From Lelliottia sp. JS-SCA-14 (GTDB lineage: Bacteria; Pseudomonadota; Gammaproteobacteria; Enterobacterales; Enterobacteriaceae): a stretch of DNA of 64,000 nt. The stretch is taken from assembly GCF_035593345.1 (NCBI RefSeq), contig NZ_CP141606.1, positions 3,286,001 through 3,350,000 on the forward strand, given 5' to 3'. Positions 1,383 to 4,912 of the stretch are shown piece by piece. Every line of letters begins with the position of its first letter. Position 1 is the stretch's first letter. Position numbers and translations under genes: made by a program. The notes under the pieces were generated by a model that had not been told where the DNA came from, did not search any database, and worked only from the letters and a program-made list of their open reading frames with translations.

Positions 1383-2569
1383 ACGATACCCGTTTTGAAA
1401 GCTGCATCAAATGCACCCTCTGCACCACCGTCTGCCCGGTCAGCAGCGTGAACCCTCGCTATCCCGGTCCGAAACAGGCCGGGCCGGACGGCGAGCGTCT
1501 GCGCCTGAAAGATGGCGCCCTGTACGATGAGGCGCTCAAATACTGCATCAACTGTAAGCGCTGCGAGGTCGCCTGCCCGTCTGACGTCAAAATCGGCGAT
1601 ATCATTCAGCGCGCACGGGCGCAGTACAGCACGCAAAAACCGACCCTGCGGGATGCGATTCTGAGCCACACGGATCTGATGGGCAGCGTCTCTACCCCGT
1701 TCGCCCCGCTGGTCAATGCGGCCACCGCCCTGAAACCGGTGCGCAAGCTGCTCGACGTGGCGCTTAAAATCGATCATCACCGCAGCCTGCCGAAATACTC
1801 CCACGGCACCTTCCGCCGCTGGTATCAATCTGTCGCCGCTGAACAGGCGCAATACGCCGACCAGGCCGCGTTTTTCCACGGCTGTTACGTGAACTATAAC
1901 CACCCGCAGCTGGGCAAAGATCTGGTCAGCGTACTGAATGCGATGGGCACCGGCGTGCAGTTGCTGAACAAAGAGAAGTGCTGCGGCGTGCCGCTGATTG
2001 CCAACGGCTTTACCGACAAAGCGCGCAAACAGGCCCGGCATAACGTGACTTCCCTGCGCGAAGCAATTGTCGACAAAGGCATTCCGGTGCTTGCCACTTC
2101 GTCTACCTGCACCTTCACCCTGCGCGATGAATATCCGCATCTGCTGGATGTCGATAACAGCGGCCTGCGCGAGCACATCGAGCTGGCGACGCGCTTTATC
2201 TGGCGCAAACTCGATAGCGGGCAGACGCTGCCGCTTAAGCCGTTGCCGCTAAAAGTGGTGTATCACACGCCGTGTCATATGGAGAAAATGGGCTGGGCGA
2301 TCTATACGCTGGAGCTGCTGCGGCTGATTCCGGGGCTAGAGCTGACGGTGCTGGATTCGCGCTGCTGCGGGATTGCGGGAACCTACGGATTTAAGAGCGA
2401 AAACTACCCGACCTCACAGGCGATCGGTGCGCCGCTGTTCCAGCAGATTGAGGAGAGTGGCGCGGATCTGGTGGTGACCGACTGCGAGACCTGTAAATGG
2501 CAGATTGAGATGTCCACCAGCAAGCGCTGCGAGCACCCGATTTCGCTGCTGGCGAAAGCATTGCAGTGA
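1379..2569 (+). CDS. glpC: Anaerobic glycerol-3-phosphate dehydrogenase subunit C
   Basis: The product is a 396-residue iron-sulfur subunit that anchors the GlpAB dimer to the inner membrane and passes electrons to the quinone pool. Two ferredoxin-type cysteine clusters are visible near the N-terminus: [12 protein letters not shown] at about residues 9-20 and [12 protein letters not shown] further on. The C-terminal half has two cysteine-rich CCG-type blocks, with KCCGVP and [10 protein letters not shown]. The ATG at 1379 overlaps the glpB stop and gives the E. coli length; an upstream in-frame ATG at 1319 lies inside glpB and is not needed. glpC is the last gene of the operon and is followed by a 500-base stretch without a convincing gene. 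Confidence 0.97.
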
Positions 2570-3076
2570 CGGGAGTCCTTTATAACAGTAGTGGAATCGT
2601 TCCGTTCACTTCATCGTCCGTCTCTTTGCGGTGAACGTGTAAAGGGCGCTCGCCGCCGCTCCCTCAACCTTCACAGCTGTCTACATGTGGCACCGGTGTG
2701 GGTCCCCGCAGAAATCGGCGAACCGGAGGCCGGATGACAAGGGCTGGACGCCAGGGATGGCGGCCAGAGGCGAAACGAGACAGGACAAAATTGCCGGGAG
2801 CAATTTTGAACAGCGCTTGCGCTGGCCCCGTAGGGGCGAGTCCCATGGATGGGACGAGTAATCACGAGTCGAGCCGACCGCAGGCAGATGGCCGGGAGGT
2901 GAGCGCAGTGCGAAGCACCGATTTCATGGCGGGGCGCGGGGATTGCAAAGGGGGCCGCGCAGCCCCCTTTGCACGTTCACAAGTTGTGAAGCCATTATAT
3001 TCTGCTGAACATAAAGTGAACGGAACAACCTCTGATGCTTAACTGTCCGATACTGAGGCGCTTAGCCCCGTAAGCA
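2570..3076. other. Gene-free stretch between glpC and yfaY containing a structured inverted-repeat element
   Basis: No convincing gene lies in these 507 bases. Almost all of it is taken up by the inverted-repeat element at 2599-3026. Past that, a 9-bp perfect stem (3033-3041 with 3071-3079) sits over the yfaY stop codon; it has no T-run on either strand. The short reading frames present are arginine-, glycine- and proline-rich, overlap each other on both strands, and are best explained by GC-rich structured DNA. glpC (plus) and yfaY (minus) converge on this stretch. Confidence 0.85.
2599..3026. repeat. Candidate MITE-like or structured-RNA element with 13-bp terminal inverted repeats
   Basis: The ends are a perfect 13-bp inverted repeat: GTTCCGTTCACTT at 2599-2611 and its reverse complement at 3014-3026. 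A second nested repeat pairs GTGAACGTG at 2631-2639 with CACGTTCAC at 2972-2980, and runs on imperfectly through 2650/2961 with 18 of 20 positions matching. Inside are consecutive hairpins: 2744-2754, 2786-2808 (9-bp stem), 2811-2824, 2825-2837, 2840-2855, 2908-2918 and 2945-2972 (11-bp perfect stem, 6-base loop). No transposase gene and no clear flanking target duplication are present. My impression is that similar peptides from such segments occur in other enterobacterial genomes, which would fit a dispersed non-autonomous repeat, but I could not check this. Confidence 0.6.
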
Positions 3077-4276
3077 TCACTCAATAAACAGCGTATCCAC
3101 CACATCAATCCAGCCATGATCGCTCGCAACATCTTTCCCATTAAGCCAGCGGCGCAGCATGTTCAGGGCCATCATCGCGCACACTTCCTGACGCACCGGC
3201 AGGCTGTAGCGCGTGGCACTCATTTTCACCCGCAGAGCATGGGTGCCCTGCGGCGTGGCGAGGGCAAAGTTGAGATGATCGTCTTCCAGACCCGTCACCG
3301 CCAGCGCCAGCCCGGCGAAATGATTCACCCGACGATCGGCCGTCCAGTGGGCGGTTTGCGCCAGAGTCTCTTCCTGAGACGGCACCACTTCGCTCGCCAG
3401 CAGCGCGGCGTTGGCCCGCGAGAGCTGCAGCGCCAGCAAACCACCGGTGAACTGCTCGCTTAAGGTCAGGCTCAGCTGACGCTCCTGCAGATGGCGGGCG
3501 ATTTGCGCCGGTAATCCTTCGGTGCCTTCGAAGATCAGGTTTTCACCCGCCACGCGCTGCACTTCCGGCCATGCCGCCAGCATCGCCGCTTTTTGTGTCG
3601 CCGGGCCGGTGAGTTTCAGTTCGATAATCGGCATTGAGGAGCGATAGCCCATCGACACCCCTTCCGGCAGTTCGAGGGGATCCAGGCTTTGCGCCAGATC
3701 GCTTTCCGAGCGGCCAAAAGTGGTGAGACGCAGGCAAATCGGCGGCTCGGGCAGCGTGAATCGCTCGCGCAGGCGCGGCATGATCTCCTGCTCGACCATA
3801 ACTTTAAATTCAGAGGGAACACCGGGGGTGAAGAACATCAGGCAGCGGTTCAGCTTGACGGCAAACCCGCAGGCCGTGCCAACCGGGTTGTTGATAAATT
3901 CAGCGCTGGCGGGGATTTCCGCCTGCTTGCGGTTGCTGGGGGCCATCACCCGACCACGATCGGAAAAGAAGCGCTCCATCTGTGTCAGCCAGGCTTCGTG
4001 CAGCACCAGCCCTTCACCTTTTGCCGTGGCGGCGGCCAGCGCGCTGAGATCGTCGCTGGTCGGCCCGAGGCCGCCGTTCACAATCAGCACATCCGCATGC
4101 TCGCTGCGCTCGCGCAGCACGTTGACTAATGACTCGAGGCTATCGCCGACGGTATTGCGGCGCGTTAAGGGTAATCCCTGCTCAAAGAAAAAATTGGCCA
4201 GCCAGGCCGCATTGGTATCGGTAATTTGTCCGTGCAGCACTTCATCGCCAGTGGACAACATTTCCACGCTTATCAT
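3077..4276 (-). CDS. yfaY: CinA-like protein YfaY
   Basis: The product has 399 residues and belongs to the CinA family. The N-terminal MoCF_biosynth-like domain begins EMLSTGDEVLHGQ and includes the conserved NGGLGPTSDD stretch. The C-terminal part corresponds to the CinA amidase-like domain. In E. coli the matching protein (400 aa) is regarded as a CinA paralogue without proven nicotinamide-nucleotide amidase activity; PncC is the active one. I chose the ATG at 4276 because it is preceded by a good Shine-Dalgarno (GGGAG about 8 bases upstream) and matches the E. coli length; an upstream in-frame start would add ten unrelated residues. Biochemical role: uncertain. Confidence 0.92.
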   Translation of the reverse strand: MISVEMLSTGDEVLHGQITDTNAAWLANFFFEQGLPLTRRNTVGDSLESLVNVLRERSEHADVLIVNGGLGPTSDDLSALAAATAKGEGLVLHEAWLTQMERFFSDRGRVMAPSNRKQAEIPASAEFINNPVGTACGFAVKLNRCLMFFTPGVPSEFKVMVEQEIMPRLRERFTLPEPPICLRLTTFGRSESDLAQSLDPLELPEGVSMGYRSSMPIIELKLTGPATQKAAMLAAWPEVQRVAGENLIFEGTEGLPAQIARHLQERQLSLTLSEQFTGGLLALQLSRANAALLASEVVPSQEETLAQTAHWTADRRVNHFAGLALAVTGLEDDHLNFALATPQGTHALRVKMSATRYSLPVRQEVCAMMALNMLRRWLNGKDVASDHGWIDVVDTLFIE

Positions 4277-4369
4277 CGTGTTCTCCCACGTATTGAGTGG
4301 AAACACTATAGCGCAAACCGATGTGGGGGGAAGAAAGAAACAGGTGCGGCAGGACGCCGCACCCGAAAA

Positions 4370-4912
4370 TCAGAAACCTGCGCTCACACCAACGTACGGG
4401 CCGTCGGCCAGCGCGTTGTCGCGGTTGCCGTCTTTACCGGCGAGGTTCAGGTAGCGGTAGCCCGCTTCGATAGTGATTGGACGCATGATGGTCCAGCGCG
4501 CACCGGCGTTGGCTTCTTCATAGCTGTCGATACCGCTGGAGAGGGAATCCGGAGAGTAGTAGTACTCGCCAAACAGGCCGAAGCTGTCGCCGATTTTCCA
4601 CTGTAAACCGCCGCCCACTGCCGCCGCGTAGCCTTCGCTGCCGTCGTTCGGGTTGGTGTAGATCCCTTTCCCGCCCACGGTCGCCAGGAAGGGTCCCAGC
4701 GGAATGTTCAGACCCAGGCCGAGGCTTGCCGCATCGCCGTCGTCATCGTTATGCGTCCAGCCGCCGGTCATCGCCAGGCCAGAGGTCTCCGTGCCCATGC
4801 CAAAACCAAGGTGGGTGTAATCTTTACCCGCCTGGCCGCTGAAAGAAATTGCGTTTGCCGCTGCAGATACAAACATCAGGCCGCTCAGGCCCAGTAATGC
4901 CACTTTTTTCAT
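4370..4912 (-). CDS. yfaZ: Predicted outer-membrane protein YfaZ
   Basis: The 180-residue product has a signal peptide at about residues 1-21 (Lys-Lys start, hydrophobic core, AANA cleavage site). The mature part has alternating glycine/aromatic segments and ends in an aromatic residue (VSAGF), as expected for an outer-membrane beta-barrel. Length and sequence match E. coli YfaZ, a predicted porin-like protein of unknown function. The start at 4912 puts the signal peptide at the N-terminus; an earlier in-frame start would add 12 residues in front of it. The gene is monocistronic, with 157 bases to menE upstream and 93 to yfaY downstream. Confidence 0.93.
   Translation of the reverse strand: MKKVALLGLSGLMFVSAAANAISFSGQAGKDYTHLGFGMGTETSGLAMTGGWTHNDDDGDAASLGLGLNIPLGPFLATVGGKGIYTNPNDGSEGYAAAVGGGLQWKIGDSFGLFGEYYYSPDSLSSGIDSYEEANAGARWTIMRPITIEAGYRYLNLAGKDGNRDNALADGPYVGVSAGF

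Follow-up and report, generated by a model that had tools for sequence, protein, structure and literature searches.

A decayed mobile element between two convergent genes of Lelliottia, probably an IS4-type MITE with a mirror pair of TwoAYGGAY-related RNA domains

The window, a stretch of 64,000 nucleotides from Lelliottia sp. JS-SCA-14, contains near its start two convergent open reading frames (ORFs), at 1319-2569 on the plus strand (stop codon at 2567-2569) and at 3077-4306 on the minus strand, which we take to be glpC and a cinA/yfaY-like gene, respectively. Between them, the initial annotation had described a 428-bp patch (2599-3026), read as a MITE-like mobile repeat or a structured RNA 3' of glpC. 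This patch is only the inner part of a mobile element, now decayed, that spans about 2571-3055, since homology between copies continues past its 13-bp repeats to IS4-type terminal repeats. The features are listed below; A2 and A3 are the left-type and right-type domain alignments.

2571..3055, plus strand (orientation of the family consensus): remnant of the whole element, from a flank comparison of 22 own-genome copies and an alignment of 20
2571..2598, plus strand: remains of the outer region on the left side, consensus CCCAGGACCTTTATGGCATCAGTGGAATC, from the own-copy flanks and the alignment
2599..2611, plus strand: left arm of the inner inverted repeat, GTTCCGTTCACTT, from inverted-repeat and arm searches
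2600..2678, minus strand: surviving part of the left (minus-strand) domain, covering model positions 156-247, from a profile match (L001 1502-1580) and the alignment
2705..3025, plus strand: right (plus-strand) domain, very likely TwoAYGGAY-related, with an insert of ~80 bp, from profile matches at 2705-2785 and 2832-3025
2711..2718, plus strand: 5' side of a long-range stem, GAAATCGG, partner 2918-2925, helix 2 of alignment A3
2746..2765, plus strand: first GGA-loop hairpin, GGACGCCAGGGATGGCGGCC, GGA at 2755, from alignment A3 and predicted folds
2777..2868, plus strand: match to Rfam AaHKsRNA22 (RF02902), 40.2 bits, only just above the gathering cut-off of 39.8
2847..2849, plus strand: GGA (ATGGAT) in the loop of GTCCCATGGATGGGAC inside the inserted module, from predicted folds
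2918..2925, plus strand: 3' side of the long-range stem, CCGATTTC, from alignment A3
2944..2973, plus strand: helix 11 of A2 and A3, a hairpin TGCAAAGGGGGCCGC/GCAGCCCCCTTTGCA that covaries across the family
2974..3022, plus strand: terminal hairpin CGTTCAC (2974-2980) / GTGAACG (3016-3022), helix 12, conserved without covariation
3014..3026, plus strand: right arm of the inner inverted repeat, AAGTGAACGGAAC, from inverted-repeat and arm searches
3027..3055, plus strand: right outer arm, a decayed IS4-type terminal repeat, GCTTAACTGTCCGATACTG, with 13 of 19 positions as in GCTTAACTGACCAGCATTA
3056..3070, plus strand: probable right half of a split target hairpin, AGGCGCTTAGCCCCG, by eye against the empty gaps of relatives

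State of the window copy

The 13-bp repeats (2599-2611/3014-3026), originally described as terminal, are indeed perfect, and an inverted-repeat search extended them to arms of 94% complementarity at 2599-2614/3011-3026. They are, however, internal to the element, because the flanks of the own-genome copies are homologous outside the 428 bp; the best of these copies read TAATGCCAGTCAGTTAAGC ... GCTTAACTGACCAGCATTA. The second inverted repeat that had been noticed (2631-2650/2961-2980) was found with 90% complementarity, a further arm pair lies at 2944-2958/2959-2973 (93%), and the motif CGTTCAC or its complement is read in the sequence at 2603, 2631, 2974 and 3016, as had been claimed. Their excess over chance was judged from the family, by the genome-wide copies and the covarying stems. 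The reported chain of hairpins is present too, but as a damaged version of the family structure, since most of one domain is missing and an 80-bp hairpin repeat has been inserted. A coding reading was discarded, given the shortness of the ORFs and the compensatory nature of the variation in the alignments.

Alignment of 20 own-genome copies places a deletion of ~200 bp in the left half of the window copy, in the middle of the element, and no left IS4-type terminal repeat is recognisable in 2571-2598. Its first GGA hairpin is whole, and the AaHKsRNA22 module breaks up the second. The window copy is best seen as the relic of an older insertion, decayed, with its left end and most of its left domain gone.

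AaHKsRNA22 was the sole match over the cut-off in an Rfam scan of 1500-4500. The module (~2785-2864) splits the second GGA hairpin at its loop, where uninserted copies read GAGACAGGAAGTC or GAGACAGGATGTC; among the 20 aligned copies, it is common to the window copy and to c3118447, c2192448, c2543765 and c4034288. It fits AaHKsRNA22 (RF02902) by score, and is a hairpin repeat in its own right that has entered the element. The 80-bp module is itself dispersed, and its hairpins also carry GGA loops; its occurrences elsewhere (L092 1501-1581, L089 1501-1582 and G043) include an rhs-like frame of Proteus (by eye), a place beside a DUF3486 gene in E. coli and, in G043, a genome of the same order, 10 scored sites. 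The accessible portions of the open-access literature on AaHKsRNA name another AaHKsRNA family, not AaHKsRNA22.

IS4-type ends, copies and target sites

A total of 22 copies or part copies were extracted from the own genome, where a search with the inner arms gave at least ~20 paired sites. Their flanking ORFs, chosen mechanically and given here without a background figure, are convergent in 15 cases, tandem in 5 and divergent in 2. In a DNA search of 60 genomes including the own one, 28 matched; across the Enterobacteriaceae, 33 of the 246 genomes searched matched, representing 20 of 154 genera, with only three candidates scored per genome. No place covering 80% of the query was found in E. 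coli, plasmids or phages. Partial matches occurred in 516 of 5426 E. coli genomes and in 14 plasmid and 6 phage records, mostly via the 80-bp module among the matches listed.

Copies with both ends carry 18-bp ends of the TAATGCYRGTCAGTTAAG type, as in IS4. One genome (G007) holds a 1426-bp element with the same ends that encodes a 428-aa IS4 transposase (NCBIfam NF033592, IS4, 299 bits; Pfam PF13006, Nterm_IS4, and PF01609, DDE_Tnp_1) and shares 90% identity with E. coli IS4 over its full length. By eye, this transposase holds the Y(2)R(3)E(6)K spacing given for the IS4 family in the available part of PMC2266710. The IS4 copies on three E. coli chromosomes end in TGCTTAACTGACTGGCATTA and are flanked by perfect 12-bp duplications; a table in the same part of PMC2266710 gives target duplications of 10-13 bp for the IS4 subgroup. 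The mobile element copies have no transposase gene of their own, and would be moved by IS4 transposase supplied in trans. A profile search of the own genome gave no PF01609 match, so the copies there may be immobile now.

Other small relatives of IS4 were seen. Two 34-bp palindromes (L073 208-241 and L081 1610-1643) consist of two abutting IS4 ends and are apparently the smallest IS4 derivatives, and a 342-bp IS4-ended element in G007 (L072 150-491) has a different interior, with IS4 subterminal sequence kept at one end.

Target duplications were scored on the best end pair per locus in 23 core-bearing loci. Duplications with at least 80% identity over 10-14 bp were present in 18 of the 23 end-bounded copies, from several genera, whereas only 2 of 506 mismatched flank pairs passed the same rule; L010, L030, L051, L157 and L172 failed. 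Ten of the 23 loci belong to the own genome, and nine of these passed. The 18 copies with a duplication measure 447-737 bp. Their duplications are centred in terminator-like hairpins: once rejoined, 16 of 18 target sites reach a folding energy of -12 kcal/mol or lower (mean -16.5), compared with 78 of 584 segments drawn at random from these loci (mean -7.5). An example is the site AAAAGGGCGACCATCGGTC-element-GACCATCGGTCGCCCTTTTT, at which G031 lacks the element, though the intergenic sequence there is non-alignable. These sites point to a preference for insertion into the loop of terminator hairpins. The rejoined sites of IS4 itself gave -15.2 (G007), -14.9, -8.5 and 0.0 kcal/mol (the three E. 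coli copies); as some of them fold weakly, the preference for hairpins, clear in the MITE, is only half seen in its parent.

The mobile repeat that the initial annotation had proposed is thus borne out by many copies, IS4-type ends, target duplications and empty sites in relatives; judged from these sequence comparisons, the element is almost certainly mobile by nature.

The glpC end was matched at some length in 38 of 40 genomes of the genus, and 30 loci, the own one and those of 29 relatives, were compared. Of the 27 relatives that could be evaluated, 26 have a glpC-cinA gap of only 34-38 bp, and the remaining one (G031) is occupied. This gap had been proposed as the place to look for empty sites and duplications: the empty sites are there, but the window copy, whose left end is lost, has no recognisable target duplication. 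The empty gaps form hairpins with folding energies between -13 and -26 kcal/mol, most of them lacking a clear T-run, and it is in this hairpin that the window copy sits.

In G031 (L186), the element in the gap runs the other way; its left half is complete, and the 80-bp module is absent. Given this opposite orientation, the site must have had a less than straightforward history. Independent insertion of the two elements into the same hairpin, as against one insertion that was later inverted, is an alternative that we rate as somewhat less probable than not. Their opposite orientation, the presence of the 80-bp module in the window copy only and the status of hairpins as preferred targets would fit two separate events. 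However, the ends are decayed in both copies, only these two of the 28 evaluable genomes are occupied, and the long inverted arms could flip a single insertion.

Structured domains and their relation to TwoAYGGAY

The cargo of each element consists of two domains of ~250 nt in mirror orientation, located with a profile built from the right half. Left-type (A2, n=24) and right-type (A3, n=25) domains were aligned separately and their structures derived with RNAalifold; L062, L180 (two domains) and L183 were omitted as too diverged, and L173:2141-2382 was reassigned from left to right type. A joint alignment (A1) contains 53 of the 54 non-redundant domains, the truncated L014:1234-1452 being left out.

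The A2 structure has 75 pairs, with 91.4% of cells paired and two-sided change at 35 pairs; its covariation score is 0.272, against a shuffled mean of 0.108 (0 of 500 shuffles as high) and at most 0.056 in slid controls. For A3, the corresponding values are 69 pairs, 94.1%, 31 pairs and 0.245, against 0.094 (0 of 500) and at most 0.042. The structures are favoured over their slid versions because they were derived from those same alignments, and the sequences are also related. In A1 (n=53), 20 of 28 pairs have two-sided changes. The loops are kept: GGA is found in loops 1 and 2 of all 24 A2 sequences, and in 24 and 22, respectively, of the 25 in A3, where it is missing from 1/25 first and 3/25 second loops. 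The first loop of L180:1762-2003, outside the alignments, also lacks GGA.

Both motif and fold depend on the strand. Of the 54 domains, 46 carry CANGGAYG on their outward strand and none (0/54) on the opposite one, counts that are non-independent because the domains are related; the density of the motif is 5.07 per kb on the outward strand and 0.117 per kb in the window. ACARGGATGT showed the same polarity (10/54 versus 0/54). In 22 of 25 and 27 of 28 sequences, the outward strand had the lower folding energy. On the evidence of the alignments, it is nearly certain that the domains have a conserved RNA structure, with base pairing strongly selected.

Two adjacent hairpins with AYGGAY-type loops form helices 8 and 9 of A2. 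The Rfam model TwoAYGGAY (RF01731) scored above its cut-off in 5 of 14 loci (L182, L171, L170, L177 and L179), all from other genera; the left domains of L170 and L171 match the whole model on the minus strand, below cut-off. A left domain of the own genome (L061) reached 33.9 bits, against a cut-off of 43. The model had no match in the own genome at E<=0.001 and none in the window copy at E<=1, so the link between window copy and family runs through homologous copies in other genera. The homology makes it very likely that the domains are related to TwoAYGGAY.

The second proposal of the initial annotation, a structured RNA 3' of glpC, is borne out by the strong compensatory changes and by this link. 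Second copies and compensatory base changes, the absence of which had been named as decisive against the initial annotation, were both found, and the results support both of its readings, mobile repeat and structured RNA, as true together.

A class-wide search with TwoAYGGAY matched 17 of 274 genomes, 13 of them over the cut-off, often in multiple copies. In G326 and G216, from a distant gammaproteobacterial family, 4 of the 8 loci listed (L257, L258, L261 and L264) contain mirror pairs of outward domains within terminal repeats of the CTTGGACAAGCAAGAAAA type, unlike IS4 ends, and L263 has a mirror pair in part. By eye, GTGAACGGAA-like motifs recur 2-5 times in the right flanks of L158, L174 and L182, mismatched and in steps of ~20-35 bp, as a row beyond the right domain that resembles a row of binding sites.

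Taken together, these data lead us to regard the element as probably a non-autonomous MITE of the IS4 group whose cargo is a mirror-oriented pair of TwoAYGGAY-related structured RNA domains, the window copy being decayed. A rival view, which we hold with distinctly less confidence, takes the structured domains as the mobile unit proper, captured by IS4 ends in the Enterobacteriaceae and spreading by means of other terminal repeats elsewhere. In L090, L091 and L158-L165, inspection by eye showed no IS4 end next to the domains, and the mirror pairs of the distant family (L263 in part) stand in quite different terminal repeats. However, copies without ends may simply be old, and clear target duplications are known only in IS4-ended copies, a confinement that arises because the test covered those copies only.

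A plain IS4 MITE, with hairpins selected as DNA only (for protein binding or as cruciforms in transposition) and an RNA without a role, seems to us unlikely. The mobility evidence needs no RNA role, the inner GTTCCGTTCAC arms resemble inverted binding sites, and solo 34-bp end pairs exist (L073 and L081). Such a MITE would not account for the strand bias of the GGA motif, the lower folding energy on the outward strand, loops kept while stems covary, or homology to an RNA family that is also found with other end repeats.

That the element is the remnant of a gene-carrying unit, with a SymE-like toxin gene between inverted halves and the short form as its deletion derivative, is highly improbable and was rejected as the main explanation: such a gene lies between inverted halves in L052 (frame matching PF08845) and L135, and beside one half in L138, but only 3 of the 21 SymE-like loci checked, part of a longer list, carry any half, and L052 and L135 are the same site, adjoining an ORF that we take to be ridA-like. 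The enclosing halves in L052 (1028-2257) and L135 (632-3359) are two inverted right halves, with a further 346-aa frame inside L135; the half and gene of L138 span 1318-2321.

Proposed role and comparison with known systems

For our preferred reading, a MITE of the IS4 group with paired RNA domains, we propose the following course. Insertion would split a terminator in its loop, and the terminator halves, together with the pairing element ends, would re-form a stem around the whole element, so that insertion would do little harm. When the folds of 18 copies were predicted, each for both strands, the terminator halves re-paired (at least 5 pairs) in 36 of 36 and the element ends paired (at least 8) in 33 of 36, both figures being without a control. 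Read-through RNA from either neighbouring gene would then fold with an outward-facing GGA-loop domain at its 3' end. The likeliest molecular role of this domain would be to bind CsrA or another protein that recognises GGA hairpins, serving either as a decoy or as a 3' UTR tag.

The own genome has one copy of csrA (PF02599). The available part of PMC7652899 gives RUACARGGAUGU as the CsrA SELEX consensus; it also reports that most of the selected hairpins have at most 4 contiguous pairs and that very stable stems may be disadvantageous, whereas the stems of the element are longer. As for TwoAYGGAY, a table in PMC2864571 lists it in 2010 as a probable RNA that is not cis-regulatory, and PMC4333381 still calls its function unknown in 2014 and presents CsrA binding as a prediction.

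We lean towards an RNA-level function of some kind for the domains. That they act as a CsrA decoy is a tentative suggestion, less likely than not. Still more doubtful, though worth stating, is a class of selfish elements across the Gammaproteobacteria that would spread GGA-hairpin decoys, entering terminator loops while sparing termination and titrating CsrA/RsmA from the transcripts of both neighbouring genes through their mirror domains. Were this true, an orphan RNA family would gain a mobile origin, and a global regulator would be subject to a dosage-dependent effect.

Our results suggest that RNA of the TwoAYGGAY type spreads by jumping between gene ends. In the portions of the open-access literature consulted, no link of TwoAYGGAY to mobile elements was found, and no paper on an IS4 MITE in terminators was found in the open-access literature. 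With relatives of TwoAYGGAY recognised as mirror-paired, multi-copy cargo at gene ends in two sets of terminal repeats, the function of this RNA becomes directly testable. The element is also an example of transposable DNA with terminator loops as its targets, the terminator being predicted to survive insertion, and of RNA-structure selection acting within a MITE.

REP/BIME and ERIC are palindromic intergenic repeats at gene ends; they differ from the present element in sequence, ends and size. The BrickBuilt MITE of Porphyromonas gingivalis is, according to the accessible part of PMC4596501, also intergenic, with long predicted stem-loops and terminators predicted nearby in 10 of 19 instances. 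It differs, in that same part, by the IS5-like ends in its table, an unsplit terminator in the example described and the lack of an Rfam match.

The element domains share with TwoAYGGAY RNA (RF01731) two adjacent GGA-loop hairpins inside a long closing stem, but are mirror-paired, multi-copy and housed in a mobile element, with the window copy and the own genome below the cut-off. With the CsrA-sequestering RNAs of the CsrB/RsmZ type, they share repeated GGA in hairpin loops, a likeness that may extend to function; they differ in forming dispersed copies and not one gene and in their longer stems, and are a candidate by motif, not a classed member.

IS4 (insG), of subgroup IS4 in the family IS4, resembles the element in its 18-bp ends, the sequence of its right end and the length of its duplication. 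IS4 also often has a hairpin at its target (2 of 4 copies looked at). Compared with IS4, the element has no transposase gene, a length of 447-737 bp, a cargo unrelated save for the ends and a stronger preference for hairpins.
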